Positions 6,353 through 40,531 of a DNA stretch of 64,000 nt are shown piece by piece. Source of the DNA: Halorubrum sp. Hd13 (GTDB lineage: Archaea > Halobacteriota > Halobacteria > Halobacteriales > Haloferacaceae); contig NZ_NHOY01000122.1 of the NCBI RefSeq assembly GCF_002252755.1, positions 1-64,000 of the forward strand. The letters run 5' to 3'. The translations under genes were made by a program, and so were the position numbers. The notes below the pieces were generated by a model. The model searched no databases and had not been told where the DNA came from. It was given only the letters and a program-made list of their open reading frames with translations. Numbering within the stretch: position 1 is the first letter of the stretch; each line of letters opens with the position of its first letter.

Positions 6353-6376
6353 TCCGACCTCGCACTCCCGCGTCAC

Positions 6377-23718: not shown

Positions 23719-23720
23719 GC

Positions 23721-24212: not shown

Positions 24213-24799
24213 ACCTCATCACGTCCCTCCGAACGGCAGTTCGCCGAATCTTCACGGCACAGAACGACGATCCTCAAGAAGACGGATGGGCCCCGCCGCG
24301 GCTCCTCGTCACGGAGGAAGTCTGTAGGGAGACGCAGCGAGGCCTTCGAAGCCACTCGCCCCCTCACGAAGATCACGAGGGGGTCGTCTACTGGGCAGGA
24401 AAGTCACTCCCGGACGAGTCAACGAAGGCCGCACTCACGGTCGTCGTCCCAGAGGCCACCACGACCACCGGATCGTACGATGTCTCCCCGGTGGCGAACG
24501 CGGCGGTGATAGACGCCGTCCACGACCACAACCTCGAACTGGTAGCCACTGTCCACAGTCACCCCGGCGAACGAACGAGCCACTCCGAGCTGGACAGCGA
24601 GGCCGCCCAGCTCCCGCACGAGGGGTACTTCTCGATTGTCGTCCCGAACTACGCTGCAGGTGGCGTCCGCCCCTACACCAATTGCGGCGTCCACGTGTAC
24701 CACGACGGCGACTTCGTGGAGTTGGACGCCTCGGTGATTGATGAGCGGGTCGAGACACTCCCCTCGGCACCATCTTACATCGACACCAGAGACCAATGA
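24209..24799 (+). CDS. JAMM/MPN+ metalloprotease of the ubiquitin-like operon
   Basis: A 196-residue zinc protease of the JAB1/MPN+ type. The complete JAMM motif is present: Glu57 in HEGVVYW, and H116-x-H118-x7-S126-x2-D129 in TVHSHPGERTSHSELD. Such enzymes remove ubiquitin-like proteins from targets or trim Ubl precursors; here it may cut the terminal Val of the Ubl next door. A 25-residue basic/polar N-terminus precedes the domain. It is coupled by 4-nt overlaps to the E2 before it and the E1 after it. Confidence 0.87.
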   Translation: MNLITSLRTAVRRIFTAQNDDPQEDGWAPPRLLVTEEVCRETQRGLRSHSPPHEDHEGVVYWAGKSLPDESTKAALTVVVPEATTTTGSYDVSPVANAAVIDAVHDHNLELVATVHSHPGERTSHSELDSEAAQLPHEGYFSIVVPNYAAGGVRPYTNCGVHVYHDGDFVELDASVIDERVETLPSAPSYIDTRDQ

Positions 24800-26208
24800 C
24801 GACACTGCCACCACCGGACGAGTTCTACGCCGCTCGTGACGACCGGACGAACCGGCTGAGCGATGGGACGGACTATCGAGACACGGCAATCCTCGTCACT
24901 GGCGAACGCGACGTGCTGTCGACGTACGCCGGCCGAGTCGCCGCCCGGACGACCCTGAACCTCCTCAGTCGGTTTGCCCGGAACGTCGACGTGGACTTCC
25001 CCCCCGTCCCGTCCGACGACGAACTCGCACCGGCCGCACCGACGCTGGCCGAGCAGTGCGTCGAGCAAATGCGGGCCGCCGATCCCCACGGCCGCTTCAG
25101 TTGCACCCGCGCCCCAGATCCCTCGGCGTACGACTGCATCGTCGCCGTGGGCAACGCCGACCTCCAAGCGGGAGCAACGCCGGTAATCCGGCTCGACGGC
25201 GGTGGCTGGCTCGCCCGCGTGGTACGGGACGAGCCCGTGGAGCCAGTCTCCAGCAGAGACGAGAACCCTGTAGGCCCCGCCGTGGCCGCCTGCCTCGGGG
25301 GCGCAGAGGTGTTCAAGACCGCCGTCGGGGCGGCAGAGTCTGCCCTCACCGAGGCTGTCACCTACGACGCGTTCCACCACGAGGCGCACGAGGCGTGCGT
25401 TGAGCCAACCACCCCTGATCTCCCTTCGCCGATCGACCTCGGCACGGTACGGATGGTCGGTGTGGGATCAGTTGGTTCCGCGGCCGCGTACTTCCTCAAG
25501 CGGCTCCCGGTCGAGGGCACCCTCCAGCTTGTCGATTTCGACCCAGTAGAGCTGGTGAACCTCAACCGCTCGCCATTGTTCACCGCCGACCACGCAATCG
25601 AGAGCGCCTCAAAGGTGGAAGCCACGGCCGAATTCCTCGCCGACCACATGGACATCCACCCTTTCGAGGGCGACTACGACGCGTTCACCGCGAGCAATCC
25701 CGAGGCTGCGGATGTCGTCCTTCCGCTCGCGAACGAGCGGGGTGTCCGCCGCAGTATCCAACACGACCGCCCACCACTGATGGTACACGCCTCCACGGGC
25801 CAGTCAGACGTGTTCATCCGTCGGAATATACCGCTGAAGGAGCCGTGCCTTCTGTGCCACTTCCCGCCCGACACGGCCGAGACGGACGCGGCCTGTGCTG
25901 CGGGCGAGGCCCCAGCTGGTGACAGTGCGGAGGACGGAGGGCCGGACGCTGCCTTCCCCTTTGCGTCGTTTCTGGCAGGGTGCTTCGTGGCCGCCGAACT
26001 GGCAAAACTCCCGCTTGACAACTATCCGTTCGCCAAGCCCGTTGCCCTCGTCCGGACATTGACTGATCTGGACGGCATCGGTGCGGTGATGCAGTACATC
26101 CCCGGCGGAGACGATGAGTGTCCCTTCTGCCCAGAGGAGTACCCTAAGGTGCATCGGGACGCCATCGAGGGAACTCGGTTCGAACACCTCACTGGGTCAG
26201 GGGAGTGA
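24796..26208 (+). CDS. E1-like ThiF-family activating enzyme with N-terminal extension
   Basis: A 470-residue E1-like protein that would adenylate the C-terminus of the Ubl. The nucleotide-binding loop GVGSVGSAAAYFLKRL is at about residues 221-236, followed by VDFDPVELVNLNRSPLF with the Asp/Asn/Arg set of ThiF/E1 enzymes. A probable zinc site uses CLLC (~351) and CPFC (~442), and a mobile loop with DAACAAGE may hold a reactive Cys. The first ~200 residues are a separate domain, perhaps an inactive second Rossmann unit (RDTAILVTGERDVL). Last gene of the four-gene set. Bacterial Bil systems contain the same four parts in other orders. Confidence 0.85.
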   Translation: MTTLPPPDEFYAARDDRTNRLSDGTDYRDTAILVTGERDVLSTYAGRVAARTTLNLLSRFARNVDVDFPPVPSDDELAPAAPTLAEQCVEQMRAADPHGRFSCTRAPDPSAYDCIVAVGNADLQAGATPVIRLDGGGWLARVVRDEPVEPVSSRDENPVGPAVAACLGGAEVFKTAVGAAESALTEAVTYDAFHHEAHEACVEPTTPDLPSPIDLGTVRMVGVGSVGSAAAYFLKRLPVEGTLQLVDFDPVELVNLNRSPLFTADHAIESASKVEATAEFLADHMDIHPFEGDYDAFTASNPEAADVVLPLANERGVRRSIQHDRPPLMVHASTGQSDVFIRRNIPLKEPCLLCHFPPDTAETDAACAAGEAPAGDSAEDGGPDAAFPFASFLAGCFVAAELAKLPLDNYPFAKPVALVRTLTDLDGIGAVMQYIPGGDDECPFCPEEYPKVHRDAIEGTRFEHLTGSGE

Positions 26209-26296
26209 CTGACAAACCAATTGAACGGCGCGAATGAGGTAATCAGGCGACAGCACACCAACCGGATTAATATGCTTGCTGTTCATCGTCCTCCTC

Positions 26297-26629
26297 ATGT
26301 CACGTGATTACGACGTTGCGGAGCATATGGCAGAGGCCGAAGAAGCGGCCGATGAAGCGGTCGAGGAGTTCAGTGGATACGAGGACTTCGCGGACGCGAT
26401 AGACGCGTTCGCGAAGTCTCAGATCGAGGAGGGTAACGAGGTGCAGATGGCGAGCGACGCGGAAGAACACGCTGGACGCGCCCCCGACGAAACAGAGCGT
26501 GCGGCGGCAATCCGGGAGACCGATGTGCGCCATGAGGTCGGGCAGGCAGTCCACGGGCTACTCCGCGAGTACGGGTACCAGCCCCGACAGAGCTTCGGCG
26601 CGGACGCAAACGCACGACAGGAAGAGTAA
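26297..26629 (+). CDS. Small acidic helical protein, unknown function
   Basis: A 110-residue, strongly acidic, largely helical protein (AEHMAEAEEAADEAVEEF and DAIDAFAKSQIEEG) that I do not recognise. A TATA-like GATTAATATG (about 26263-26272) lies about 30 nt upstream, which makes the ATG at 26297 a leaderless start and argues against seven extra upstream codons. It follows the E1 gene by 88 nt and ends 17 nt from the convergent Ago-linked nuclease gene. It could be a substrate or accessory of the ubiquitin-like system, but only position suggests that. Confidence 0.6.
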   Translation: MSRDYDVAEHMAEAEEAADEAVEEFSGYEDFADAIDAFAKSQIEEGNEVQMASDAEEHAGRAPDETERAAAIRETDVRHEVGQAVHGLLREYGYQPRQSFGADANARQEE

Positions 26630-26645
26630 GTCAAGACCGACTCAG

Positions 26646-27452
26646 TCAAGCCGGCGATTCAACTTCGTGAATTCGCAGGGAGTATTGGTCGGGCAACTCT
26701 TCGATAAGCATCCGGATCTTGAGGACGCGCTCCTCCCGTGCAAGCTGCTCCATCGCTGCGATCTGTGACCGTTTGAAGGATGCGTTCCCTGTCTTGATCT
26801 CACAATAGTACCGTTCCAAAACCGGCCCATTCCGTCCGTCTCTCACGACCACTTTGCAGTCTGGCACCCAGTTATTCCGGCCCCCGTCCTCACCAACTGA
26901 AAGGAACCTCCCCGGCTGAACGTCGATCTTCAGTCCGTTCTCCAGTTCGCCTTCGTCAAGGGGCAGATCCTTCCGAACGAAGTAGTGGATTGCGTGTGGT
27001 TTGGGCACCTCAAGCAGGATTGCCTCGCCGAGTGTACCATAGAGATTTGCACCGATGTCGAATGTCCACGTGTCTCCATCAACGTGTGCCGGCTCCTTGA
27101 TCGACGGACTGTGATCCGCAAGTAGGTACGCGTCGATCTCGCTTGGATCGTTCTCAGCGGCGGCTTGAATACGGAGTGACCCCCCGGAGGTCGACAGCTG
27201 GCGGGCGTAACTCTCGGCATGTGTCCGCGATCCAAATTCGAGAATGTGACTGTGGGCCTCGACGGCGTCGACGAGCGTTCCGTTCACATCGAGTGCCCCC
27301 GGTTTCACCTCAACGACGAATCCCGCTCGATCGCCGGGCTCGATCGGGCCGGCAATATGATCTTCATCGCGGTTTCCTACCTCGGAAGAGGGCTCAACGA
27401 TCTCTCCGTCCTCGAATCTTAGTTGAGATGTGTTCGGTTCATCGTCGTCCAT
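26646..27452 (-). CDS. PD-(D/E)XK nuclease linked to Argonaute
   Basis: A 268-residue protein whose C-terminal third carries a PD-(D/E)XK nuclease core: WVPDCKVVVRDG, then YYCEIKTGNASFKRSQ (Asp, Glu-x-Lys, and a following Gln), and a helix rich in Glu/Arg. The N-terminal ~170 residues match no family I know and may sense the target or bind Ago. The ATG at 27452 has GGAG 9 nt upstream. A TTG at 27479 would overlap the ago stop as TTGA and is an alternative. Last gene of the operon. A nuclease beside a catalytically intact Ago suggests processing of Ago-cut DNA or of guides. Confidence 0.75.
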   Translation of the reverse strand: MDDDEPNTSQLRFEDGEIVEPSSEVGNRDEDHIAGPIEPGDRAGFVVEVKPGALDVNGTLVDAVEAHSHILEFGSRTHAESYARQLSTSGGSLRIQAAAENDPSEIDAYLLADHSPSIKEPAHVDGDTWTFDIGANLYGTLGEAILLEVPKPHAIHYFVRKDLPLDEGELENGLKIDVQPGRFLSVGEDGGRNNWVPDCKVVVRDGRNGPVLERYYCEIKTGNASFKRSQIAAMEQLAREERVLKIRMLIEELPDQYSLRIHEVESPA

Positions 27453-27475
27453 TGAGTCATTCTCCGTGGTCGTGA

Positions 27476-30214
27476 TCAAAGAAATCCAATGTTCTTCCGA
27501 AGCCGTGACGTCGGCGGCAGGTACTCCTCCGCGGCCGCTTCGCTCGCTCGGTCGGCGTAGTAGGTCGTGATTGGGAGCCGGGCGGTCGTACTTATTGCGC
27601 CGATGTGGGACTGCGAGAGCAGGTACACCTGTGAGGCGAGTGTCCCGATGTCCGTGTCGCCCGCCTCTCGCTCCACCTGAATCGGTTGGGGGAGCCCTGT
27701 GTACTGGCTCGTGGCCTGTGACTCGGGTTTCCCGAAAGACGAGAGGATGGCGTGTGCGTCACTCTCGTTTATTGCTGCGACCCCTTTGTCAGGGACGCTC
27801 GCTTTGCCGTTTTCAAGATCGAGGACACGTGCTGGCGACTGCTTCCGAACCTCTACGATGTCGTAGGTAATCGAGAATTCGGCGAGCAGGTCTTCGACTG
27901 GGCTCAGATCCTCGTTCATGAAGCCGTCACGGTGGATGACGATGTGTTCCGGATACTCTCCACGCTCTTGCTTGTAGCCGACGACCGCCTGCCGGACGAT
28001 GTCCTTGAGTTTGCCCGGCGGAATCTTCTCGCCCGCCTGTGGGTTCGCCGAAGTGTACCCGAGAATCGTCCCATCGTCGTAGATGCTCGTCGTCGAGGCC
28101 GCGATGTGGACGCGGTCGTCGCTGTCCTTCGGGTAGCGGTGCGAGACATCGATCCCGATGAACAGGTCGGCGTCGCCGGGCATCGAGTCTTCAGCGGTGA
28201 AGGGGATGCCGCCCGCGGCCGCAATGAGTCCGAGTGCGATGTTCGGGAGTGCGTTGTCATCCGCCAGCGTGTCGATGTGCGCCATCTGGCTGTCGATGTG
28301 CTTCTGCCGGAGGGCCTTCTTCACCTCGTGGTAGATGTCGCTCGGGTCGCTCGCCCCGAGGTTGAACCCGTCAGGCGGCAGGATGACGCACGCCGCAGTG
28401 TAGTCGTTCTCGTCAGGGATGTCGTAAATGAGGTCGCCGTAGATCGCGTCGGCCGTGTCGTCGATACTGTACTCGTAGCGGTCGACCTCGTCGGCCTCGG
28501 CGCCGATCCGAGAGAGCATCCGCTCGAGGTTTGTCCACCGCTCCGCGTGGGGCCCCTTGTCGGGGTGGATGATGCAGACGTTGAACTCCGAGGGCGGCTG
28601 GTAGACGGAGTTCGAGGTGATTCGCTTCGGGTGGTCTCCAGACTGACCGTCGCCGAACTGCAGGATGTCGGCGTCGGTCTCGAAGAGGCGTTCGATTGAG
28701 TACGTCTCGCTCTCCGACAGCGGTGTCGGGTCGAACGCCACGGCGGAGCCCTGAAGCGAGATCGGGTCGAGACCCTCCATGAACTCGGTGCTCCGTTCCA
28801 GACACCGCTGCCCGGACAGTCGGGTCTTCCCCTGAGTTGCCTCGTTGAACGCGGGCGCGAACGATTTGAGGTTCTCGAAGTGGGGCTGGAGGACGAGCAG
28901 CTCTTGGGGGTAGGTTTCCGTGTTGAGTCTGCCCTGCTTGGTGACCTGCACAACCCGCCGGTCTGCACGCTCGAACTCGTCGATGGTCTCCTGCGACACC
29001 TGCTTCGCGTCGCGGTGGTACTGGACGACGCTCCGGTTGCCCAGCCGACGGAGCGAGTCGGTGGCCCGTTCCGGCAGCAACTCGTCCAGATACGCTCCCT
29101 TCCCCGACTCGCGATAGGACACGTTGACCCGGAGCCCACGGTAGAGGCGCGACTGGTCGACCTCGTCGAGTCTGTAGTCCGAGATGATCTTGTGACGGAA
29201 GTCGACGAAGAGGTAGAGGCGTCCCTCCGGAGTGACCGAGAATGAGAGGTTGTATCGCTCGTGGAGCCGGAAGTTCTCCCTCTCGACGATCGGCTCCTGC
29301 GAGAGGATCTTGTGAATGCCGTGGCGTGTCCGGTAGTCGCCCTCGAGCTGGCGCTTCACCTTCGTCTCGAGGAAGTCCTTGAGGGTCTGGCGATCTTGCG
29401 GTCGTTCATAGTCGAGGCACCGCGTCTCGGGCCCCTTGAGTCGGAAGTCGTCGATGTCGATGGCACTCCCGTCGATCTCCTCGAGGGCCACCAGCGTGAG
29501 CGGTTCGACGACAGCAACTACCGGCCAGTCGTCGTGCTGGCGCGCGATCTTCCGGCGTGCCTTGTAGGTGTCGCGGAGGGCGGCCTCTTCATCGTCGGGC
29601 AGATAGCCGTTGACCGCCACCAGCTCGTACTCGTGTACCGTCAGAGAGCCCGCACGACTGGTACTCGCAAAGGCGGTCAGGGCATGCCCCGTCTGTGTGG
29701 TTGCCGGAGCGGGGACTTCAGAGAGGGCGTCATCGATGTGATCGTCGAGCGAGGGGGACTCCGTCGTGTGGTCTGACTCCTGCTCCTTTGCGACGGCTTC
29801 CTCGGTGACGACATCGGTGGCGGTCGAATCCCCGGACGCGTCCGTTTCGGCACATTGGTTCGTCGTGTTTTTGTCCTCTGGCGGCCCGCGACTGACCTCC
29901 GTCTCCTCGGTCGCGTTCAGGTTGTAGAACACCCGTCCGCCCGACTCGTTGGTGGTAAACTGGACTTCGGTGAGGGTGTAGGTTGCGTCCTGCTCGAAGT
30001 CGAAGTCGTACACCGGTTCGGGTGTGCTATTCGCCCAGAGGGTGAGGTAGCGCGTCGTTTCTGTGTCGTCAATGTACTGCAGCTTGTGATTTCCAGAGCC
30101 CTGCTCCGGGTTGCTGTACGTGTTCTTGACCGTCACCACGACGGTGTACGTCTGATACTCCTCGAGATCGTTCCGAACGTCGGTCTCCTCCAGCAAGATG
30201 ATGTCGTCAGTCAT
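27476..30214 (-). CDS. ago: Long prokaryotic Argonaute with active PIWI domain
   Basis: A 912-residue Argonaute closely similar in layout to the Natronobacterium gregoryi protein: an N-terminal OB-like domain (~1-110) and acidic linker, then N, PAZ, MID and PIWI domains. The PIWI catalytic tetrad is complete: Asp689 (FIGIDVSHR), Glu729 (QAGEKIPPG), Asp763 (IHRDGFMNEDL) and Asp888 (ITTYYADRAS). The C-terminus NIGFL is the typical Ago end. It should cleave nucleic acid under guide direction; DNA guides are usual for archaeal long-A Agos. The DUF2797 gene overlaps its start by 4 nt. The operon context ties it to DNA-end processing. Confidence 0.95.
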   Translation of the reverse strand: MTDDIILLEETDVRNDLEEYQTYTVVVTVKNTYSNPEQGSGNHKLQYIDDTETTRYLTLWANSTPEPVYDFDFEQDATYTLTEVQFTTNESGGRVFYNLNATEETEVSRGPPEDKNTTNQCAETDASGDSTATDVVTEEAVAKEQESDHTTESPSLDDHIDDALSEVPAPATTQTGHALTAFASTSRAGSLTVHEYELVAVNGYLPDDEEAALRDTYKARRKIARQHDDWPVVAVVEPLTLVALEEIDGSAIDIDDFRLKGPETRCLDYERPQDRQTLKDFLETKVKRQLEGDYRTRHGIHKILSQEPIVERENFRLHERYNLSFSVTPEGRLYLFVDFRHKIISDYRLDEVDQSRLYRGLRVNVSYRESGKGAYLDELLPERATDSLRRLGNRSVVQYHRDAKQVSQETIDEFERADRRVVQVTKQGRLNTETYPQELLVLQPHFENLKSFAPAFNEATQGKTRLSGQRCLERSTEFMEGLDPISLQGSAVAFDPTPLSESETYSIERLFETDADILQFGDGQSGDHPKRITSNSVYQPPSEFNVCIIHPDKGPHAERWTNLERMLSRIGAEADEVDRYEYSIDDTADAIYGDLIYDIPDENDYTAACVILPPDGFNLGASDPSDIYHEVKKALRQKHIDSQMAHIDTLADDNALPNIALGLIAAAGGIPFTAEDSMPGDADLFIGIDVSHRYPKDSDDRVHIAASTTSIYDDGTILGYTSANPQAGEKIPPGKLKDIVRQAVVGYKQERGEYPEHIVIHRDGFMNEDLSPVEDLLAEFSITYDIVEVRKQSPARVLDLENGKASVPDKGVAAINESDAHAILSSFGKPESQATSQYTGLPQPIQVEREAGDTDIGTLASQVYLLSQSHIGAISTTARLPITTYYADRASEAAAEEYLPPTSRLRKNIGFL

Positions 30215-31113
30215 GTGTTGGAATCCTCCTCGGGTACCGCGAGGTCGCCCGTCGTTTCGAGCGTGACTCGTGTCCCGGCGTGCAGCTTGGCATTGAATGT
30301 GAACGACTCGGTCGCGATGACGCTCCCCCGGACGCCGACCACGTGACCACGCTGTCGGTCACCCTTCGACAGCTCCGAGGTTCCGGCCACGATCTCGTCA
30401 ATCACCCGAGTACTCCTGTCGGGAACGGAGACAACCCGCTCCCGGATTTCGGCCGGGCTCAGGTCGTCGAGCGTGTAGCATCCCGCGAGCCTGTCCGGGA
30501 AGTACCCCTCCGCCTCCGCGGCGGCCTCAACCAGTGCTTCGACCGGATCATCGGCGGGAACGTACCACGAGCTGTCGGCCTTCGAGGGGTACTCCTCCGC
30601 GAGGCACATCTCGACGATACCTGCCACCTTCCGGTTGTGGCACTCGCCGATGATGGCCGCGTGGGTCGCCCCCTGCTCCGCCCAGCGGGCCTGCCTGCGG
30701 TCGGCTCGGGTGATCCCGACCTTGACCAAGTCCTTGGCGACGAGGTAGACGACGAACGTGTGGGCGCACGCGTCGCGCTTATACTCCGGGTAAGGGCAAT
30801 CGCTCCACGAGCACTCCGTACCCGGATTCCAGATGCAAGGGGTCATCGGCGGAGAATCGGCACAGTCCCAGCAAACGTCCCGATCGGGATCGACATCACC
30901 GCCGCACGACGAACAGACGTGGTCGTCGTGAACCGTGATCCGGATCTCCTCTCCGATCAGTGCGTCACAGTTGACTGGGTCGTTGAACCCGAAGAACCGC
31001 AGTGCAGGCCGACCGTTGTACCACGTGAGATGGTCTAAATGCCCATCTCGCTGGTGGGGGAAGTCCGCCGGCTGACCTCCGAACGAGTTGAGCCCAACTT
31101 GATACCCGCTCAT
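30211..31113 (-). CDS. DUF2797 protein with zinc-binding N-terminus and GIY-YIG-like core
   Basis: A 300-residue protein. The N-terminal part binds zinc (CSSCGGDVDPDRDVCWDC, ~67-84). A Cys-rich bridge follows (CSWSDCPYPEYKRDACAH, near 120), then the DUF2797 core FVVYLVAKDLVKVGITRADR, RWAEQGA and NRKVAGIVEM. The VVYL...VKVGITR...R...E order resembles GIY-YIG nucleases (inference; the family is formally unnamed). The C-terminal ~80 residues form a beta-rich domain. Start and stop are both overlapped by neighbours (TAATG at the start; ATGA with ago). It probably acts as a nuclease or nucleic-acid adaptor for the Ago module. Confidence 0.78.
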   Translation of the reverse strand: MSGYQVGLNSFGGQPADFPHQRDGHLDHLTWYNGRPALRFFGFNDPVNCDALIGEEIRITVHDDHVCSSCGGDVDPDRDVCWDCADSPPMTPCIWNPGTECSWSDCPYPEYKRDACAHTFVVYLVAKDLVKVGITRADRRQARWAEQGATHAAIIGECHNRKVAGIVEMCLAEEYPSKADSSWYVPADDPVEALVEAAAEAEGYFPDRLAGCYTLDDLSPAEIRERVVSVPDRSTRVIDEIVAGTSELSKGDRQRGHVVGVRGSVIATESFTFNAKLHAGTRVTLETTGDLAVPEEDSNT

Positions 31114-31289
31114 TATGGCCTCGAGACCTTCGGCTCCTGTAGAGTGAACAGAGGCGAGGATTCGATCGTCGATTCAGACGAAACACACGGATGTAGTTCA
31201 GGTTGCCCGGATTTCTCTAGTCCCGGGTGTGCTCCCCCAACGTCTTCATCGGCCGCGACGACCGGCATGGGGATCATTAGCCTGCTCAT
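31113..31289 (-). CDS. Unannotated 58-aa ORF between herA and the DUF2797 gene
   Basis: An uninterrupted 58-codon frame exactly fills the gap between herA and the DUF2797 gene. Its ATG (31289-31287) overlaps the herA TGA by one base (TGATG), and its TAA overlaps the DUF2797 ATG by one base (TAATG). The protein starts MSRLMIPMPVVAADED and has no recognisable domain: a short hydrophobic start, one Cys and a polar Ser/Glu-rich middle. Codon use is less GC-biased than in its neighbours, so chance cannot be excluded. The double overlap is the main argument that it is translated. Confidence 0.5.
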   Translation of the reverse strand: MSRLMIPMPVVAADEDVGGAHPGLEKSGQPELHPCVSSESTIESSPLFTLQEPKVSRP

Positions 31290-33148
31290 CAGTCGTGTCT
31301 CACCACCGGGTGATTGAGGCCTCGGATCTCGACGGGACGGACGTTCGGCGCCTTGATTACTGCCTGTCCCTGCGAGAACGTGGCGAGGTCTTCGGGCGCG
31401 TACCGGCCGGGGATCGGAACGTCCTCCGCGATCTCTTCCTCGAGTTGCAGGTAGATCCGCGTCCGGAGCTGTGACCGGATCTGGTCGTCAATGTCCGTCG
31501 GCTCCTGCGTTACCAGTGCGAGCCCGAGGTTGTACTTGCGGCCCCGCTTGGCGATCCGGCGGAACGACTGGACAATCGAGCGGGTCTGTACTGTCGAGGT
31601 GTCGCCGAGGAACTCGTGGGCCTCGTCGAGTCCGAGCAGCAGCGGCGTGTCGGCGACGTTCGGATCGGGATCGTCCGTCGCAAGCTTGTTTTCGACGATG
31701 TAGGTCAGCATCGCCATCACGACCAGCCGCATCTCCATGTCCTCAGGGTCGCCGAGGTGGTTCACCGGGACGACCGTCACACGGCCGGGCTGGAACAGCT
31801 CGTTCGAGATGTCGGTGAGCGACTGGGTGCCGGAGTCGAACACGTCGCTGAAGTAGCCCTTGTCGACCCGACGGGTCATCCCCCGCCACATGTTCTGGTT
31901 GATGTCGTGGCGGGTCTGGAGAGCGTCCTCGTTGTCGTTGAGGTAGTCGATGAACCCGTCGTAGGTGGGCGCAGCGGCGGCGGCGAAGTAGGAGCGGATG
32001 CAATCGCGGATCGCCTCCCGCGTCGGCGGCTCGGGATCGAACGGCATGATGAGTTCGGGGTTCGAACGCACGAGTTCGAACGGGACGCCGAACTCCCGGA
32101 TGTTGTTGATGGCGGGAGTGGTCTTCCCGTCAACGACCGGCGCGAATGTCTGGAGGTCGTGCAAACCACACGCCCCCGTGTTGATTCCGCCGACCTCGAT
32201 TCCCTGTCTCTCAAGACGCCGCCGGACGTCATCCGGGAGGTCGCCAGCGTTCGGATCGTCTCCGAGGCCGCTGTACTCGGCCTCGGGGTCGATGATCACC
32301 ATGCCCAGCATGCGGTCTTCGGTGCCTCCATCGGTCGTCGCGATCTCGTACGTCTGGTCGGTCGCCAGCTGGCGGTACAGGTTCTTGGTGAAGTGGGTCT
32401 TCCCCGCGTCGGTCGATCCAGTCACCAACGTGTGCGTGTAGATTGCGGGCGTCGACGCGCTCCCCGTCCCGTCCGGGAGCTGGAAGGCGAGGGGGTCGTC
32501 CGGCGGATGCCGCTCGCCGCCGACTGCGAGGTGGCCGACGAACGGGCCGCTGTCAGGGAGGTTCAGGCCAGTCTGGAGGAACGCGTCGCCAGTTGCCTCG
32601 TAGATCTGCGTGAAGGGCTTTGGAACTCGGTCAACCGTTGACCGCTCAAGGTCGTCCTCATCGGTGCCCTCCACGATGGCGATGGGGTCGAGTTCGGCAG
32701 CCTGCACGTACTGACGTTCGTCGATCGTCTCGCCGTCGATTCCCCTCCGGATGTCCGACTTGTCATCGATGTCAGCCCGCTGCTCGTAGCCGATCTCGAT
32801 GACCTCCGTGAGGAGTTCGGCGTGGGCCTCGTTCTCCCGGCCCGGGTACGGAATCTGGATGTAGTCCCCGAGCCGCAGGGCGTCGCGCGTGTCGCTCCGG
32901 ACGTAGCCGATGATCTGGTGATCGCCGCGGCGAACGCTGAGTCCCTCGCTCGCCGTGACGTGTCCGAGGGAGTCGCTCGTCGCGGTCGTCCGGAGCCCGC
33001 GGGTCTCAGGCCCGCCCGCGAACTCGAGGGCGACCGACCCATCGCCTTCCTCCTCGCCGGCCCTATTTTGCGCTGAGTCGTTTTCAGTGAGGTCGCTCAT
33101 TCGGTCGACGAACTGGTCGAAGTCCTCGTCGGTGTCGCTGTCGCTCAT
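31289..33148 (-). CDS. herA: HerA-type hexameric DNA translocase
   Basis: A 619-residue FtsK/HerA-superfamily ATPase that pumps duplex DNA into the NurA nuclease during 5' end resection. An N-terminal beta-barrel HAS domain (~45-160) precedes Walker A GSTDAGKTH (244-252). A post-Walker acidic strand (VIIDPEAEYSGL) follows, with Walker B LLLGLDEAHEFL (Asp508, Glu509), sensor motif GLALVTQEP and an Arg-finger candidate in QLRTRIYLQL. It overlaps nurA by 4 nt. Probably a second, island-borne copy; I expect the housekeeping HerA elsewhere on the chromosome. Confidence 0.9.
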   Translation of the reverse strand: MSDSDTDEDFDQFVDRMSDLTENDSAQNRAGEEEGDGSVALEFAGGPETRGLRTTATSDSLGHVTASEGLSVRRGDHQIIGYVRSDTRDALRLGDYIQIPYPGRENEAHAELLTEVIEIGYEQRADIDDKSDIRRGIDGETIDERQYVQAAELDPIAIVEGTDEDDLERSTVDRVPKPFTQIYEATGDAFLQTGLNLPDSGPFVGHLAVGGERHPPDDPLAFQLPDGTGSASTPAIYTHTLVTGSTDAGKTHFTKNLYRQLATDQTYEIATTDGGTEDRMLGMVIIDPEAEYSGLGDDPNAGDLPDDVRRRLERQGIEVGGINTGACGLHDLQTFAPVVDGKTTPAINNIREFGVPFELVRSNPELIMPFDPEPPTREAIRDCIRSYFAAAAAPTYDGFIDYLNDNEDALQTRHDINQNMWRGMTRRVDKGYFSDVFDSGTQSLTDISNELFQPGRVTVVPVNHLGDPEDMEMRLVVMAMLTYIVENKLATDDPDPNVADTPLLLGLDEAHEFLGDTSTVQTRSIVQSFRRIAKRGRKYNLGLALVTQEPTDIDDQIRSQLRTRIYLQLEEEIAEDVPIPGRYAPEDLATFSQGQAVIKAPNVRPVEIRGLNHPVVRHD

Positions 33149-34518
33149 TGTTCGTGTGTAGTCTCGTTGGTGTCGGCAGTCTGTTCGGCGGGCGATTCGT
33201 CCATCCCCTGCTCGTCGACCTGCGCCGAGTCATCGTCGGGGGCCACGATGTCCGGCTCTCGAGCGAGGCTCTGTCCGTTGTCGAAGCCCCACCGCCGGTC
33301 GGTGTTGTAGTCACCGACTTCCTCGGTGCCGCGGATGAGCCCCACGAGGTGCCGGCGGGCCTCACGGGAGATTCGTGCCCGGTCGTCGGCACGCTTGATT
33401 GCGAACGGGACGTCGCCGGCCTCCGCGATGTGGGCCAGCGCGAGCTGCTGGAGGCGCAACCGACTCTCCTTCGCGTCCACCAGCATCAGTGGCGCCTCAA
33501 CCCGGAGGACGATGTCGTCCGGAAGTCGGACGAAGAAGAACGCCCGCCTGAAGTCGCGGGGTTCCCGCCCGTCTGGCATCTTGAACCCGGCGAGCGGTTC
33601 GAGATCAGTGCCGTAGACGCGCTGATGGGAGCGGACGAGCCACGATGTGAACGTCAGGTGGTCGGGCTCGTCGTCCGCGAGCAGGGCCGAGACGAACTGC
33701 GAGTCGTCGTCCCACGGAATCCGTGGGGCGTCTTCGACCCTCTCCGTCTTGCTGGACAGCGCCTCGACGACATCGTCCGAGCGGAGCGTCTTGGTGAACC
33801 CCAGCGTGGGCAGTCCTCGGCTTGCCAGCGTGTCGATCGCGTTGACGCGAGACTGGATGGCCGAGGCGGCGAGGCCCATCTCTTCGACCTCCTCAAACGC
33901 GATCGAGTCGTCCGGGCCGCGGCTCGTCCGAGACATGTTGACGAACGGGAGCACGGACATCGGGTAGAGGCTCCCGTCGACGAAGAGGGGGCCGTCGATT
34001 CGCTCTGCCAGCCGCTCGCTGTGCCAGCACTCCGCGGGAACGCGTGCGGACGCGCCGACCCACTTGTCGAGTTCGCTCCGGGCCGGGGCCTCCTCGACGG
34101 GTACGAGCGTGAGGCTCACGTCGCCGTCGATCAGGTCAACCGGCGAGTCGAGGTCGTCGAACTGGGCGTGAACGGCCGCAGTCAGAGTCTCCAACTCCTC
34201 CACCTCCTCGTCGCAGTCTCCGAGGGCCCCACCACTCGCCACGGCGGCCGACATGACCATTCCGTTGCGGAACTTCTTGGGCGGAACCGTGCTGGCGTCG
34301 ATGCCGTACCAGCAGTCGAAGAGCGTCCCGTCGGCGAGGTCACCAGCCGGATCCCGGTAGACGCGCGGCGACTCGAGTGACTCGACCTCTCCACCATCGC
34401 GAGCCATGTGATCGCGGAACAGCGTCCCGGCGTCCGGGACGTCGTCGTCCCCGTCCGCATTCTCGTCGATGTAGCGGAACACTTCCTCAAGCGCCGAGAC
34501 GGCGTCGTGGGACGCCAT
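33145..34518 (-). CDS. nurA: NurA-type 5'-3' nuclease
   Basis: A 457-residue RNase H-fold nuclease of the NurA family, partner of HerA. Metal-binding Asp74 lies in CWYGIDASTVPP and Asp181 in LFVDGSLYP. The C-terminal conserved block contains FFFVRLPDDIVLRVEAPL and a run of Arg-rich helices. The last ~45 residues are acidic and disordered. It is longer than thermophile NurA (~330-450 aa) mainly through these extensions. It starts 3 nt after rad50 stops and overlaps herA, so the four-gene resection set is co-translated. Confidence 0.85.
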   Translation of the reverse strand: MASHDAVSALEEVFRYIDENADGDDDVPDAGTLFRDHMARDGGEVESLESPRVYRDPAGDLADGTLFDCWYGIDASTVPPKKFRNGMVMSAAVASGGALGDCDEEVEELETLTAAVHAQFDDLDSPVDLIDGDVSLTLVPVEEAPARSELDKWVGASARVPAECWHSERLAERIDGPLFVDGSLYPMSVLPFVNMSRTSRGPDDSIAFEEVEEMGLAASAIQSRVNAIDTLASRGLPTLGFTKTLRSDDVVEALSSKTERVEDAPRIPWDDDSQFVSALLADDEPDHLTFTSWLVRSHQRVYGTDLEPLAGFKMPDGREPRDFRRAFFFVRLPDDIVLRVEAPLMLVDAKESRLRLQQLALAHIAEAGDVPFAIKRADDRARISREARRHLVGLIRGTEEVGDYNTDRRWGFDNGQSLAREPDIVAPDDDSAQVDEQGMDESPAEQTADTNETTHEQ

Positions 34519-34520
34519 CG

Positions 34521-37500
34521 TCAGTCACCCCCAGCCTCGGCGCTCTCAGGGTCATCGCCCACCTCGGGATCGGTTTCGACCGTCGATCCGCCGTCTCCAT
34601 CGTCCATCTCGACGTGGATGCGGTGATCGGCGTCTTGGACGAGTCCCTCGTAGCGGTCGACGACGAACACCTGCGGCACGTTCCAGTCACGGATGCTGTC
34701 GACGGCCTCCTCCAGCTGGTCGATGTGCGACTCGTCGAGGTGGTTCGTCGGCTCGTCGAGGATAAACGGCGGGAGTTGGTCGTCGCGACCCTCCGCCTGA
34801 TCGGCGAGGACGCGGTAGACGCCAGCCCGAAGGGCGATCGTCACGAGTACGCCCTCGCCCCCGCTCGCCTTGTGGGGATCGCGCGCCGTGTCGCTGCCAC
34901 TGACCAGCCGGAGGTCGTAGTCCTCGTCGATGTCGACAGCCTCGTAGGTGCTGTTCTGGTACAGGTCGCGGAAGACCTTGTTCGTGTGATGCTTGAGGCG
35001 GTCGAGAACGCGCTCGCGCATCCGCGTCTGTACTTCGTCGTACGTGTCGGTGATTGCCTCGAAGTCATCGAGGATGGACTTGGCCCACTGAATCCTCTCC
35101 TCAAGATCGGCCTTCTGGTCGCGCTTGTCGTGGAGCCGCTCGAGTCGATCTTCGGCCTTGGTCTTGGCATCCCGCGCGTCGTCGCGCTTCCCGCGGACGG
35201 TCTCGAGCTGCCCCTCTAAGTCGTCGACCACTCCCTCGATTTTCTCTTTCCGTTCCTGCAGTTCCTCTTCCGTCGTGTCGCCGAGTTCCTCCTCCACCTC
35301 CTCGATTTCGCCCTCGATCTCCTGCAAGTCATCGCGCTCGGATTCGAGCTGCTCACGCTTGTCGTTGCGCCGTTCGCGGTGCCCCTCTCGGTCGCTCTCC
35401 AGCGTCTCGATCTCGTTGTGCGCGTCGCGTGCCTCGCGGGCGGCGTCCCGGGCAGTCTCGACGCTGTCCAGTTCGTCCTCGGCGTCGTCGAGGGCCGTCT
35501 CGGCCTCCTCGACCGCGTCGCGGGTCTCGCCGAGTTCCGTCCGCTTGTCCGTGATGTCGCTCTCCAGCCCGTCTATCTCGCCCTCGACATCGGCGAGTTC
35601 CTCACGCGCGTCGTCGACGGCGCGTTCGGCCACCTCGACCTTGTCGGCGGCATCTTCGACTTCGTCGATACTATCGAGCGCCGAGTCGCCGGCCTCAATT
35701 TCGTTTTCGAGGCCACCGATTTCCTCAGTCAGCGCCTCGACCTCCCCCTTCAGTTCGGCTCGCTCCTCTCGGGCCGAGTCGATGGTCGCCTCCAGTTCGG
35801 CGATTTCGGTGGTTACGTCGGCGAGAGCCCGGAAGCTAGCGGCCTCGAAGAGAGCCTCGGCGACTGCTTGCACCCGGTCGAGCTGCACCTCCGCGGTATC
35901 GAGGTCGTCCCGGGCCGCATCGGCAGCCGACCGTGCCCTGCTCTGCTCGGCTTCCAGCCGATCGATGTGGTCGCCGTAGTCGTGGATGGCCCCGATTTCG
36001 CCCCCGTCGAGCGGCCACTCCCCGTCAGCGAGCGACCGGAGATCCTCGACGCGTGCCGTCGTTCGGCCTACCGTTTCACGTGCGTCGGCGAGGTCTTCGG
36101 CCGCCCCACGGTGGTCGTCGAGCGCGGCCTCGAGTTCGTCCGGCAGCCGCCCGGTGAACACCGTATCGATGTCCTCGGCGGTGACTGAGAATCCGAGGCT
36201 CGATGCCGCCTCGTCGGCGCGTTCAACGGCCGCCTCGAACGCCGCCTCGGGATCGTCCACGTCGCCCTCCAGACTCTGGCGGATGTCCTCGTGCCGCTCG
36301 CGGGCGTCGGCCAGCTCGTCCTCGGCGTCGCTGATCTCGTCCGCAAGGCGCGACCTGCGATCGCGCTTGGTCTCCCGCTCCGTCTGGAAGTCGGACTTCT
36401 CGTCCCGGAGGTCGTCCATGCGGTCGCGGACTGCCTCCTCCGGTTCATCGACCTCGTCCGGCGTGACATCGAGGTAGTCCCGGAGCACCTCGTCACGCTC
36501 GGTGCGACGCTGTTCAAGCGTCGTCTCGGCGTCCTCGAGCGCCCGTTCTGCATCTTCGACCTCCGCTTCGCGGGCCTCACGACGTGACTCGGCGTCGTGG
36601 AGTTCGTCCCGTAGGCCATCGAGTTCCTCCTTCAGCCGGTCGACCTCGTCCTCTGCGCTCTCGACGCTGGCACGCTCCTGCTCGACGGTGCTGCTGATGT
36701 CGTCGTACTCGTCCTCGTAATGGTCGACGGCCTTGCGGGCCGCCTGTTCGTCGGTCAGGTCGAAGTCGTCGGCCTCCTCGTCAAGGTCGGCGATGCGGTC
36801 TTGGTTTTCCTCGATGTCCTCGTCGCATCGCTCGATCTCCTCCTCCAGCCCCTCGATGTCCGACTGGAGGTCGTCGATGGTGCTTTCGACCTCGTCACGC
36901 CGGCTCGTCAAGTCGTCCAACTCCGACTGGCGATCGCGGTGCTCGTCGATGTCGTCCTCGATGTCTCGGAGTCGCTCGCGGGCCTCCTCGATCCCCCCTT
37001 CCAGTTCCTCAATGCGACCCTCGAGATCCTCGATCTCCTCTGTCTTCGCCTGCAGGGTCGCCTTCGGGTCGTCTGCCTCGAGATCCTCGATGTCGTCGCG
37101 GACGGTCGAAAGTTGCGACCGTTTGTCCTCCAGCCAGTCCTCGACCGGCTTCGACACCTCGTTGATGTCCTCCTCGTAGTCGTCGGGCGCGGTCAAACCG
37201 AGCAAGTTGTCGAGAATCTCCTCGCGGTCGCCCGGAGAGGCCTCAATCAGACGGTTCAGCTCCGTCTGCTGGGCGTAGGTACTGTTGGCGAACGCCTCGT
37301 AGTTCATCCCCAACAGCTGGGTGACCTTCTCCTCGATCTCCGTCGACTTCTCCGAGTAGGTCTCGCCGGTCTCGAGGTTGGTCATCTCGGCGCTGGCCCT
37401 CGCCCCGCCGTCGCTTTTCCGGTCGACGTCCACGGTGATCTGGTACCGGTCGTCGCCGACGCTGAAGACGAGTTCGGAGGAGGCGCTGTCCTCGCCGTCC

Positions 37501-37697
37501 TGAATCAGGTCGACCAAATCGTGCGCCCCGATACGATCTCGTCCGTGACGGGGATATAATGTCGTGTACAGCGCGCGGGCGATGGTCGACTTCCCGGCGC
37601 CGTTGGGGCCGTAGATCAGCGTCAGTCCCTCGCCGAACTCGATCTCCAGTTCGTCGTAAGACTGAAAGTTGGTCAGCGTGAGTCGCTCGAAGTTCAT
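34521..37697 (-). CDS. rad50: Rad50-like ATPase lacking the CxxC zinc hook
   Basis: A 1058-residue ABC ATPase with long coiled coils, partner of Mre11. The head motifs are intact: GPNGAGKST (Walker A, 30-38), Q-loop TYAQQTELNRLIEASPGDRE, signature KASGGEGVLVTIALRAG and Walker B PPFILDEPTNHLDE. The whole protein has one cysteine (Cys291), so the CxxC zinc hook that joins Rad50 dimers is missing. Around residues 495-575 the coiled coil is broken by a small globular segment (SLGFSVTAEDIDTVFTGRLP, then WPLDGGEIGAIHDYG) that may replace the hook. It overlaps mre11 by 4 nt. Confidence 0.88.
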   Translation of the reverse strand: MNFERLTLTNFQSYDELEIEFGEGLTLIYGPNGAGKSTIARALYTTLYPRHGRDRIGAHDLVDLIQDGEDSASSELVFSVGDDRYQITVDVDRKSDGGARASAEMTNLETGETYSEKSTEIEEKVTQLLGMNYEAFANSTYAQQTELNRLIEASPGDREEILDNLLGLTAPDDYEEDINEVSKPVEDWLEDKRSQLSTVRDDIEDLEADDPKATLQAKTEEIEDLEGRIEELEGGIEEARERLRDIEDDIDEHRDRQSELDDLTSRRDEVESTIDDLQSDIEGLEEEIERCDEDIEENQDRIADLDEEADDFDLTDEQAARKAVDHYEDEYDDISSTVEQERASVESAEDEVDRLKEELDGLRDELHDAESRREAREAEVEDAERALEDAETTLEQRRTERDEVLRDYLDVTPDEVDEPEEAVRDRMDDLRDEKSDFQTERETKRDRRSRLADEISDAEDELADARERHEDIRQSLEGDVDDPEAAFEAAVERADEAASSLGFSVTAEDIDTVFTGRLPDELEAALDDHRGAAEDLADARETVGRTTARVEDLRSLADGEWPLDGGEIGAIHDYGDHIDRLEAEQSRARSAADAARDDLDTAEVQLDRVQAVAEALFEAASFRALADVTTEIAELEATIDSAREERAELKGEVEALTEEIGGLENEIEAGDSALDSIDEVEDAADKVEVAERAVDDAREELADVEGEIDGLESDITDKRTELGETRDAVEEAETALDDAEDELDSVETARDAAREARDAHNEIETLESDREGHRERRNDKREQLESERDDLQEIEGEIEEVEEELGDTTEEELQERKEKIEGVVDDLEGQLETVRGKRDDARDAKTKAEDRLERLHDKRDQKADLEERIQWAKSILDDFEAITDTYDEVQTRMRERVLDRLKHHTNKVFRDLYQNSTYEAVDIDEDYDLRLVSGSDTARDPHKASGGEGVLVTIALRAGVYRVLADQAEGRDDQLPPFILDEPTNHLDESHIDQLEEAVDSIRDWNVPQVFVVDRYEGLVQDADHRIHVEMDDGDGGSTVETDPEVGDDPESAEAGGD

Positions 37698-38899
37698 GCG
37701 TCTCCCTCCGTAGAGGTGTCCTCGAACCGTTCCGCCGCCAGCTCGCGGAATCGCTCCTTTGCGTTCGTGCGCCGACGCGTGTCCGCGAGGTCGGGATCCG
37801 CGTGGCGCAGCATCTCCTCGATCTCCCGGGCCTCGTCGCCGATGTCCAGCTCGCCGACGGCGGTGTCCAACTCGGCGTCGACGTCGATCTCGCTCTCGGT
37901 GTCAATGTCGTCGAGATCGCCGGCGATAGCCTCGACGACCCGCTCGTCGGTCACGTCCGCGTGGACGACGTCGCGGTCATGGAGGTAGTCGAGGATCTCC
38001 TGCTTCGTCACCCCGTTATCGGCACCGCTCACATCCACGAACACCACTGCGTCCTCTATCGGCCCCTTCTCCGCCACACGCCGCTCAACCAGATCGAACG
38101 TGTCGGACTCGCCGAACTCGATGTCGATCTCGATGAACTCGCGGGTATCGAGCAGCAGGCGTTCCCGGTCGATCGGGGGTTCCTGCTGCCGGGAGATGGT
38201 CAGGAGGTCGACCGACGGCTGGGGTTTGTCACGACCCGTCCGCTCGGTCGCGCCCGGGTACCAGACGGGCACGCCGCGGCAGGTGTCGCCCATTCGCTCG
38301 TGACAGTCTCCGAGCGCAACGCCGTCAACCTCCGTTCCGAAACGGTCGAAGACCGGCTCGAGGTCGATGATGTTGGAGGCCTCGTGGTCGATCGGTTCGA
38401 TCGGCGGCGAGAACAGCTGGTGCATCGCGACGAGCCGAACGAGCCCCTCGTCGGCGGGTTCCAGCGAGAAGTCAGCGTCCTCCCAGTCGGGATCCCGGAC
38501 AGAGTCGATGCCGTACAGGGCAACCTCGTCGTTGAGGACGGTCGGCGAGCGGGTGAGGCGAATCGCGTCGCCAGTGAGGGCAAACTCGTCTACGAAGTCC
38601 GTGTTCCGCCTGAGTTCGTGGTTCCCGACAATGACATAGAACGGGATATTCGTCTCCCGGAGTCGGCAGAGCGCCTCGTGGCACGCGAAGACATCGTCAA
38701 AGCTGGTGAGCTGGTCGTCGAACAGGTCGCCGGTATGTAGGACTGCGTCCACGGGTTCGTTGTCGTGGGCTGGGTGTTCGCCGCGCGCAATCTGTAGCGC
38801 CTGTTCGAACGCGTCCAGATAGTCCTCTCTTCGTATCGCGTTTCGGTACTGCTGATAACCGATGTGCGTGTCGCTGACGTGGAGGATCTTCGTCGTCAT
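37694..38899 (-). CDS. mre11: Mre11-like nuclease with altered GHxH motif
   Basis: A 401-residue calcineurin-like metallophosphoesterase, the nuclease of the Mre11-Rad50 complex. Phosphoesterase motifs are HVSDTHIGY, HTGDLFDD, IVGNHELRR, VAMHQLF and GVALGDCHE. In the last one the canonical GHxH has Asp in place of the first His; Asp can still bind metal, but activity may differ. The C-terminal ~100 residues are acidic helices that should contact the Rad50 coiled-coil base. The ATG at 38899 has GGTGA 8 nt upstream; a GTG at 38911 would overlap that site. First gene of the eight-gene operon. Confidence 0.87.
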   Translation of the reverse strand: MTTKILHVSDTHIGYQQYRNAIRREDYLDAFEQALQIARGEHPAHDNEPVDAVLHTGDLFDDQLTSFDDVFACHEALCRLRETNIPFYVIVGNHELRRNTDFVDEFALTGDAIRLTRSPTVLNDEVALYGIDSVRDPDWEDADFSLEPADEGLVRLVAMHQLFSPPIEPIDHEASNIIDLEPVFDRFGTEVDGVALGDCHERMGDTCRGVPVWYPGATERTGRDKPQPSVDLLTISRQQEPPIDRERLLLDTREFIEIDIEFGESDTFDLVERRVAEKGPIEDAVVFVDVSGADNGVTKQEILDYLHDRDVVHADVTDERVVEAIAGDLDDIDTESEIDVDAELDTAVGELDIGDEAREIEEMLRHADPDLADTRRRTNAKERFRELAAERFEDTSTEGDA

Positions 38900-38983: not shown

Positions 38984-39118
38984 ATGTGTTTAGAGCATTA
39001 TTCTGTTCCTAAAAATCTGAGTTGTGCTATTTAGTAGTATTAAATGAGTTATTTTGAGATGCAGCTGTGTTCCAGAGATACTATTAAGAGACATCGAATA
39101 CCATATGCGCTTAGAGAT

Positions 39119-40531
39119 ATGAACTCGAGTATGCAGACTGCCGAACTCGGGACGGACTACGGGCGGCAAAACCCGTGGTGGGAGTCGGGTGATGTGTCAT
39201 TGTCTGCTCGGTATCATTCCGAGAGGCGTTCCGATTATCAACACAAATTGAACGCCGTCCGTTCCAGTCAGTTCACAACTATCGCGGGAGCCGCAGGTAG
39301 TGGAAAGACGACAATCCTCCACCAAATCGCTCACGACCTAATCGAAGACGATGGCGTACCAGCACAGAACCTCATGTATCTTCCGCTGGGGAATCCCCGG
39401 TTCCAGATTGGTTCAAACGTCATCCGGGATGCCGTCGACATTTTTGCAACCTACTACTGGCGCCGTGATGCCGACCGCGGTGAGGGCTATGTCCTTATCG
39501 ACGATGCCTACGCATCGGACTCTTGGGACGAACAGGTACGGTGGTGTCTAGAGGAGTTCGACGATCTCACAGTTGCGGTGACTCTTCCGACGCTCAATCG
39601 GGCGCAGACGGGCCCTATCGAGGATCTGGGTGTGGATACAGAGAGCGATCTGCTGCTGCCTCCGAAGTTCTACGATGTCACTACTGAGAGTGGGCGGGCA
39701 CAGGTGGAAAAAAAGCGCGTACGTCAATTGCGCGACGCACTCGAGACGGGTGCGGACTCTGGCGACCTCGAACCGCTTCGCTCGTCGGTCGACGCACTCA
39801 CCTCATCGTTGGAATCCACTAGTGCCGTCAAACGCGGTGTTTTGGACTACTTCAGGGGAGCAGAACGCGAAGTTGACACCACGGATGTCGCACACAATTT
39901 GGAATCGACGATCTACAGGGACATTCCGAGGTACCAGCAATTTGAAGACCGGAGTGATCTGTATGCCCTGTGTGCGATCGCGGCCTTGAACACGGGGAAG
40001 ACGCTGGGGCTCAAGGATTTGAGCGGAGTCTTGGAATGTGATCGGCGCACGCTCCAGCGATACCTCGACATCCTCGAGGACTTCTTCATTCTGACCCCCT
40101 CCTACCAGTACGAGCACGAGCGCCGGCGAAGTGTCCGACTATACCTGCGTGATCCCCTCGTCATCGGTTCGCTTGCCGAGCTTGATTTCGATGGCATACT
40201 TGAACCCGATGCCGAGCGGTTGCTCACGTCGACCATTGTCTTTGACCACTTGAAGCGACTCGGCTTCTACTACCAGCGACAGAACGCCCAAGTTCACTTC
40301 TGGGAGAGTGCTGGCGAGGCGGTTGATCTCGTCGTTGAGACCGGTAATGGGAACCCTCTCCCTATCGTTATTCGGGACACGTCCCAAAATCGTGAGCCGG
40401 TTAGATCGATTCGGGGCTTCTGTGACGAACACGACTGCGAATTCGGCGTGGTGGTCGCCCGGGACATCGATCCGTCGATCGATGAAGAGGTGGCGACCCT
40501 TCCACTCTGGCTATTGCTCCTCGTGATCTGA
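39119..40531 (+). CDS. AAA+ ATPase with DUF4143-like C-terminus
   Basis: A 470-residue protein. It has a P-loop (IAGAAGSGKTTILHQIAHDL, about residues 58-77), Walker B-like YVLIDDAYASD, a winged-helix-like segment (LSGVLECDRRTLQRYLDIL) and a C-terminal restriction-endonuclease-like fold (FWESAGEAVDLVVETGNGNPLPIVI). This is the AAA_14/DUF4143 layout found in many archaeal genomes, often in defence or mobile regions; the function is unknown. It is divergent from mre11 across a 220-bp AT-rich gap. An ATG at 39044 would add 25 residues that do not look haloarchaeal. GC content is lower than in the core genes. Confidence 0.75.
   Translation: MNSSMQTAELGTDYGRQNPWWESGDVSLSARYHSERRSDYQHKLNAVRSSQFTTIAGAAGSGKTTILHQIAHDLIEDDGVPAQNLMYLPLGNPRFQIGSNVIRDAVDIFATYYWRRDADRGEGYVLIDDAYASDSWDEQVRWCLEEFDDLTVAVTLPTLNRAQTGPIEDLGVDTESDLLLPPKFYDVTTESGRAQVEKKRVRQLRDALETGADSGDLEPLRSSVDALTSSLESTSAVKRGVLDYFRGAEREVDTTDVAHNLESTIYRDIPRYQQFEDRSDLYALCAIAALNTGKTLGLKDLSGVLECDRRTLQRYLDILEDFFILTPSYQYEHERRRSVRLYLRDPLVIGSLAELDFDGILEPDAERLLTSTIVFDHLKRLGFYYQRQNAQVHFWESAGEAVDLVVETGNGNPLPIVIRDTSQNREPVRSIRGFCDEHDCEFGVVVARDIDPSIDEEVATLPLWLLLLVI

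Follow-up and report, generated by a model that had tools for sequence, protein, structure and literature searches.

The stretch of DNA analysed herein, 64,000 nucleotides from a contig of the haloarchaeon Halorubrum sp. Hd13 (hereafter the window), carries on its minus strand, between positions 26646 and 38899, a cluster in which the genes of a DNA end-resection set, Mre11-Rad50-NurA-HerA (MRNH), share their strand with the genes of a DUF2797 protein and a long-type Argonaute (Ago). The order is mre11, rad50, nurA, herA, DUF2797, ago and a PD-(D/E)XK-like gene (Table 1). A preliminary description of this DNA had proposed an eight-gene operon, with all genes on one strand and with tight junctions up to ago. 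The single strand was borne out, and so were the junctions mre11/rad50 (−4 nt), rad50/nurA (+2 nt), nurA/herA (−4 nt) and DUF2797/ago (−4 nt); the last gene follows ago at −4 nt, or at +23 nt if its ATG start is used. The count of eight had to be lowered, since the open reading frame (ORF) of 58 codons between herA and DUF2797, which overlaps each neighbour by one base, is very likely non-coding. We compared codon positions with the corresponding locus of Halopenitus persicus (L002), whose Ago is 94% identical to that of the window: the small ORF differs at 8, 16 and 7 sites (of 59) at codon positions 1, 2 and 3, with no third-position excess, whereas DUF2797 (0.02/0.03/0.13), herA (0.08/0.06/0.28) and likewise mre11 do show such an excess. 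Its substitutions are thus not protein-like and it was rejected as an eighth gene, which leaves seven genes and a chain of coupled starts that is interrupted once, by a gap of 175 nt between herA and DUF2797. At the related locus of genome G083 (L050) the place of this ORF is filled by a 680-aa PLD-nuclease/ATPase gene, for which the rest of the genome that holds the window yielded no counterpart. A TATA-like TTTATATT lies ~75 nt upstream of mre11 and fits one promoter ahead of that gene; a scan for sigma-70 promoters carries no information in archaea.

Table 1 Features of the Argonaute-MRNH locus, in window coordinates
Feature	Coordinates	Strand	Length	Basis and remarks
Mre11 nuclease, accessory	37694..38899	-	401 aa	Metallophos 2.3e-13; start ATG 38899, upstream GTG 38911 less likely
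Rad50, accessory	34521..37697	-	1058 aa	AAA_23 4.2e-23; Walker A/B and signature retained; no zinc hook
NurA-family nuclease, accessory	33145..34518	-	457 aa	Profile homology to haloarchaeal NurA-domain proteins
HerA-family translocase, accessory	31289..33148	-	619 aa	DUF87 3e-5; HerA_C 1e-5
Small ORF between herA and DUF2797	31113..31289	-	58 codons	Probably no gene
DUF2797 protein	30211..31113	-	300 aa	PF10977 2.1e-26; cysteine-rich zinc-ribbon-like part and core with GIY-YIG-like motif and topology
Long-type Argonaute, NgAgo clade	27476..30214	-	912 aa	Piwi 2.5e-18
PD-(D/E)XK-like protein	26646..27479	-	268-277 aa	VPD...EIK read by eye
AAA_14-DUF4143 ATPase, divergent	39044..40531	+		DUF4143 7.7e-16; family F3

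An accessory end-resection set

Four contiguous genes represent the four MRNH families, with ATPase and nuclease motifs intact (for NurA, the active site as judged by family alignment only). The gene identities first given for the locus were upheld by profile for Mre11, Rad50, HerA, DUF2797 and Ago and, through homologues, for NurA, which lacks a direct Pfam match while members of the same family match NurA at 3e-12 to 6e-9; the PD-(D/E)XK label of the last gene has no family match. HerA is further matched by the PADLOC HerA model (6.8e-19) and by HerA entries of the PDB, including 4d2i (8.6e-9). Mre11 matches the NCBIfam model Mre11_Halo at 2.4e-62, yet far below the cutoff of this equivalog model for the housekeeping protein. 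A second mre11, whose product is 36% identical to the operon Mre11, stands beside a rad50 on contig C46 of the same genome, so the set in the window is accessory; a third Mre11-like gene lies on contig C27. Another long Rad50/SMC-like gene in the window (6353-9961, plus strand) scores 617 bits with the rad50 profile, perhaps by way of its coiled coil.

The same duality holds for NurA. Among the 391 haloarchaeal genomes that form our sample, nearly all carry a housekeeping-type NurA-domain gene (for example L139 3504-4754, 1.3e-24); an accessory type, which includes the operon NurA, is found in ~45 genomes. The near-universal gene contrasts with a review in which NurA is absent from Haloferax volcanii (PMC7776575). 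The accessory Rad50 is also unusual in its zinc hook, where CPxC has become WPLD in the window, H. persicus and G083, and the hook alignment shows that it is likewise absent in genome G242. The CxxC that canonical Rad50 has at the apex of its coiled coil, missing from these four (the window's rad50, L002, L117 and L087), is kept by nearly all other accessory Rad50s scanned. Since the hook-less four share one NurA-HerA lineage, the loss is ancestral to that lineage and no sequencing error.

Argonaute and its DUF2797 neighbour

In a tree of 53 Ago rows, the window Ago falls inside a clade of 15 rows (SH-aLRT 100), named here after NgAgo because we take locus L056 to be NgAgo and L065 to be a near relative. 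The window Ago is 41% identical to the Ago of the locus so assigned. The preliminary description had called it active, and the catalytic tetrad (D689/E729/D763/D888) is indeed complete and, in the alignment, invariant among 15 relatives; the enzyme is thus apparently active, a property predicted from these residues. Its nearest profile match with a solved structure is 6qzk (8.6e-95; entry titled 'Protein argonaute'), which we take to be CbAgo. In H. persicus (L002 9857-12737, the same as locus L055) ago is split by a frameshift or a sequencing error, and the other operon genes look intact.

A DUF2797 gene adjoins Ago at all 15 loci of the NgAgo clade and at none of the other Ago loci in the tree. 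Haloarchaea have one near-universal DUF2797 copy, and 15 genomes of the sample have an accessory full-length copy in addition. The protein has conserved cysteines, and its core holds the conserved motif VYLV...VKVGITR..R...R together with E168. An AF2 model of the core (pLDDT 82) has the strand and helix order b-b-a-b-a. A PDB fold search with this core returned nothing significant, with 1zg2 (UPF0213) and 1ywl, presumably both of the GIY-YIG family, within the top 20. When DUF2797 and GIY-YIG families were compared by profile, the outcome was negative, but the positive control failed as well, so that the comparison had no power, and the full-length model (pLDDT 45) made its fold search meaningless. 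Because the search with the core fell short of significance, a resemblance to GIY-YIG nucleases is only a lead.

Recurrence of the Argonaute-MRNH linkage

Long-Ago neighbourhoods across the sample were read using profiles built from the window genes and the genes next to them. The Pfam Piwi search found Ago in 47 of the 391 genomes and missed several members of the NgAgo clade, and a clade-specific profile raised the number to 61, fragments included; without that profile, 6 of the 15 accessory DUF2797 genes would seem to be Ago-free. MRNH genes lie within ~15 kb of Ago at 10 of the 15 NgAgo-clade loci, in three layouts: same-strand (the window, H. persicus, G083), convergent (G003, G065, G269) and divergent (G151, G095, G373, G224). 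In G151 the presence of NurA (1.5e-23), HerA and a PLD protein was confirmed; the other three divergent loci have Mre11-Rad50 at the same positions and, in two of three, HerA, with NurA assumed. Beyond this clade, G242, whose Ago belongs to another deep branch, has MRNH, a PLD protein and Ago on one strand without DUF2797, and in G254 an MRNH set ends ~6 kb from an AddAB-type Ago locus. By a rough count, not corrected for kinship, mre11-rad50 lie within 12 kb at 18 of 51 Ago loci against ~1 expected. Outside Halobacteria, a phylum-wide look at six loci, several of them on short contigs, gave no Ago-MRNH case. In Methanocaldococcus jannaschii, MJ1321 (Ago), MJ1322 (Rad50) and MJ1323 (Mre11) are presumably neighbours. 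The preliminary description was to be given up if the linkage occurred in this genome only, and we found it in about ten others, where the Agos fall into two deep clades, the MRNH sets into several lineages and the layouts into three kinds.

The linkage appears to have arisen repeatedly. On the tree of NurA plus HerA the Ago-linked sets are scattered, such that forcing them into one clade costs 942 log-likelihood units (p-AU 1.2e-45), and at least three gains of Ago-linked MRNH are needed. Partners are also exchanged: the window and G242 have NurA-HerA of one lineage (path 0.4) with Agos just 24% identical, whereas the window and G003 have Agos 60% identical and NurA-HerA more than 2 substitutions per site apart. 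Without selection for Ago together with MRNH, such exchange is difficult to account for, although the clustering of defence genes in islands could also bring the two modules together.

At ~19 of the 53 haloarchaeal Ago loci, an AddAB/RecB-like helicase-nuclease set stands in place of MRNH, made up of a UvrD plus PD-(D/E)XK protein and an AddB-like one, to which a Cas4-like PD-(D/E)XK protein is often added and a PLD protein usually. Further combinations are Mre11-Rad50 with a 1491-aa SF1 helicase (L051, L035) and Mre11-Rad50 with a PLD protein alone (L073, L075). Judged by gene content, what these partner sets have in common is an end-processing helicase-nuclease. The arrangement at L047 (834-14135), repeated at 13 more Ago loci of the same clade, comprises a divergent AAA_14-DUF4143 ATPase, Ago, a PLD-nuclease, an AddB-like protein, a Cas4-like PD-(D/E)XK protein and an AddA/RecB-like protein. 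In a genome outside Halobacteria (L162 1127-5444), a gene for a PLD-HerA fusion overlaps ago.

Last gene and flanking genes

The PD-(D/E)XK-like gene, listed as a nuclease of the operon in the preliminary description, is not supported as a core part: across the genomes studied, it lies with Ago in the window and H. persicus alone. It has no match in Pfam, PADLOC or NCBIfam. Residues 44-115 of its product are common to small (~110 aa) haloarchaeal proteins, and a full-length homologue (41%) occurs in G259, where the 18-kb stretch examined holds no Ago or MRNH genes (loci L125 and, in G259, L140). The divergent AAA_14-DUF4143 ATPase belongs to a family present at 28 of the 53 haloarchaeal Ago loci, and is possibly a regulator or a component of the system. 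On the other side, facing the Ago operon, positions 23434-26629 hold a likely Ubl, E2-like, JAB and E1 (ThiF 6e-17) cassette with a 100-aa gene. The same four-gene cassette adjoins Ago in G083 (L050) and H. persicus (L002), and cassette and Ago locus may travel together.

Discussion

We read the locus as an accessory cassette in which a long Ago of the NgAgo clade, as a guided nuclease, would work with a dedicated end-resection machine against plasmids or viruses, and we give this reading a probability of about 0.6. It is supported by the gene content, the apparently intact active sites, the recurrent and independent linkage, and the replacement of MRNH by AddAB-like sets at other Ago loci. 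The coupling of Ago and MRNH, supported by genomics, is real and recurrent, and probably functional. Joining Ago and end resection in one functional unit, as had been proposed at the outset, gains from the several MRNH lineages, the two deep Ago clades and the AddAB-like substitutes.

In the mechanism that we propose, Mre11-Rad50 and HerA-NurA would load wherever plasmid or virus DNA, newly arrived or under replication, offers a free end; by unwinding and resecting such ends they would release single strands. Ago would then take up short single-stranded DNA guides with the help of DUF2797, a zinc-ribbon protein that is perhaps a GIY-YIG-type nuclease or a guide-loading factor. Guided cleavage of matching multicopy DNA would create fresh ends, at which MRNH could re-enter, destroy the target and yield further guides. 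Guide and target would both be DNA, and MRNH might serve guide supply, target destruction or both. In the CbAgo case, cutting is followed by the action of RecBCD (PMC10164581), and prokaryotic Argonautes (pAgos) bind RecBCD-shaped small DNAs (PMC10269773).

Several observations weigh against such a cassette. Most accessory MRNH sets (~45 genomes with accessory NurA) are not beside Ago, which makes MRNH a separate module, borrowed by Ago and with an Ago-free role of its own. Five NgAgo-clade loci, including the one presumed to be that of NgAgo itself, have no MRNH nearby (one lies on a 6.4-kb contig), and the convergent and divergent layouts exclude a single transcript as a general rule. For CbAgo, moreover, the biogenesis of small DNAs reportedly does not require RecBCD (PMC10269773), which makes guide supply the less well supported of the two roles for MRNH, behind target destruction. 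By this analogy we favour an MRNH that mainly acts from Ago-made or natural ends to degrade the target, with guides as a by-product. A more ambitious version, with the linked MRNH as a dedicated machine for both guide biogenesis and target shredding and DUF2797 as an obligate partner of the NgAgo clade (a guide-trimming nuclease or loader), is tentative, at rather less than even odds.

The most serious competitor, which we nevertheless think unlikely, holds that DUF2797-Ago and MRNH are separate defence modules that act alone and are merely co-located in defence islands. The mostly Ago-free occurrence of MRNH, the DUF2797-Ago pairs without MRNH in several genomes and the likely defence-type Ubl-E2-JAB-E1 cassette beside the window locus would all suit it. 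It sits poorly with how tightly the genes are coupled on one strand in the window, G083 and G242, with the independent recruitment of MRNH, and with a choice that falls repeatedly on end-resection enzymes (MRNH, AddAB-like sets, Mre11-Rad50 with an SF1 helicase) and not on random defence genes.

A role in chromosome maintenance, in which Ago and MRNH would resolve stalled or terminating replication and mend breaks, matches proposals made for TtAgo and, after expression in E. coli, for cyanobacterial pAgos; PMC10269773 reports that pAgos and RecBCD act together at the replication terminus, and notes co-precipitation of TtAgo with AddAB. We regard it as improbable here, given the patchy spread (~50 long Ago loci in the 391 genomes), the location of several Ago loci on plasmids, the near-identical loci in different genera (G003, G065) and the status of MRNH as extra copies in addition to another mre11-rad50. 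That Ago was inserted by chance into an ordinary housekeeping mre11-rad50 locus would account for the adjacency of these genes, but is scarcely credible and is refuted by the paralogues elsewhere in the genome, namely the pair on C46 and the Mre11-like gene on C27; the operon Mre11 also scores far under the housekeeping cutoff, and the accessory NurA and DUF2797 are second copies as well.

Should the dedicated cassette be confirmed, it would bear on where long prokaryotic Argonautes obtain their DNA guides and on what finishes their targets, questions that are unsettled and for which work in E. coli implicates RecBCD of the host. Ago has apparently been linked to a resection machine of its own several times, with unrelated enzymes doing the same job, and gene removal in a haloarchaeon makes the source of guides and the fate of targets testable. 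Were the dedicated MRNH machine and the obligate DUF2797 both to hold true, Agos would be working with exchangeable end-resection engines of their own, either MRNH or AddAB-like. The constant DUF2797 neighbour is a concrete and unexamined partner candidate for the clade of NgAgo, whose activity is disputed; were it obligate, NgAgo would have been studied so far without its natural partner.

Comparison with known systems

NgAgo of Natronobacterium gregoryi is of the same Ago clade and, at the locus that we take to be its own, has the same adjacent DUF2797 gene, but unlike the window no MRNH beside it. CbAgo is, on our assumption about 6qzk, the nearest relative with a solved structure. As proposed for the window, guided DNA cutting by CbAgo is tied to an end-resecting helicase-nuclease (PMC10164581, PMC10269773); RecBCD is a housekeeping enzyme of the host there, whereas a private and unrelated MRNH is encoded with Ago here. 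The NgAgo paper PMC9040764, by text search, does not mention an operon or neighbouring genes. In the open-access literature that combines Ago, HerA, NurA and Mre11 we found no description of the Ago-MRNH linkage, and in open-access texts, where DUF2797 is mentioned merely in passing, none of the DUF2797-Ago pairing; both statements apply to that literature, wider absence being unproven. Helicase and nuclease neighbours of pAgos have been noted generally, as operons with UvrD or PD-(D/E)XK proteins, in a text that does not name Mre11, Rad50, HerA or NurA (PMC6299218), and of this set PMC2743648 brings up only HerA-family ATPases, in another connection. The Mre11-Rad50-HerA-NurA operon of thermophilic archaea (PMC7776575) unites the same four functions as a DNA repair set, whereas the set in the window is accessory and paralogous, is joined by Ago and DUF2797, and has a Rad50 without zinc hook. 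As proposed for the window, DdmDE (PMC12904381) directs an Argonaute and a helicase-nuclease against plasmids, but it has two components, the pAgo recruiting one degrading helicase-nuclease; the window cluster contains no DdmD-like gene, its Ago keeps the complete tetrad, and the partners are four genes. The linkage is best filed among the Argonaute-plus-helicase-nuclease systems, as a variant with an accessory end-resection set.

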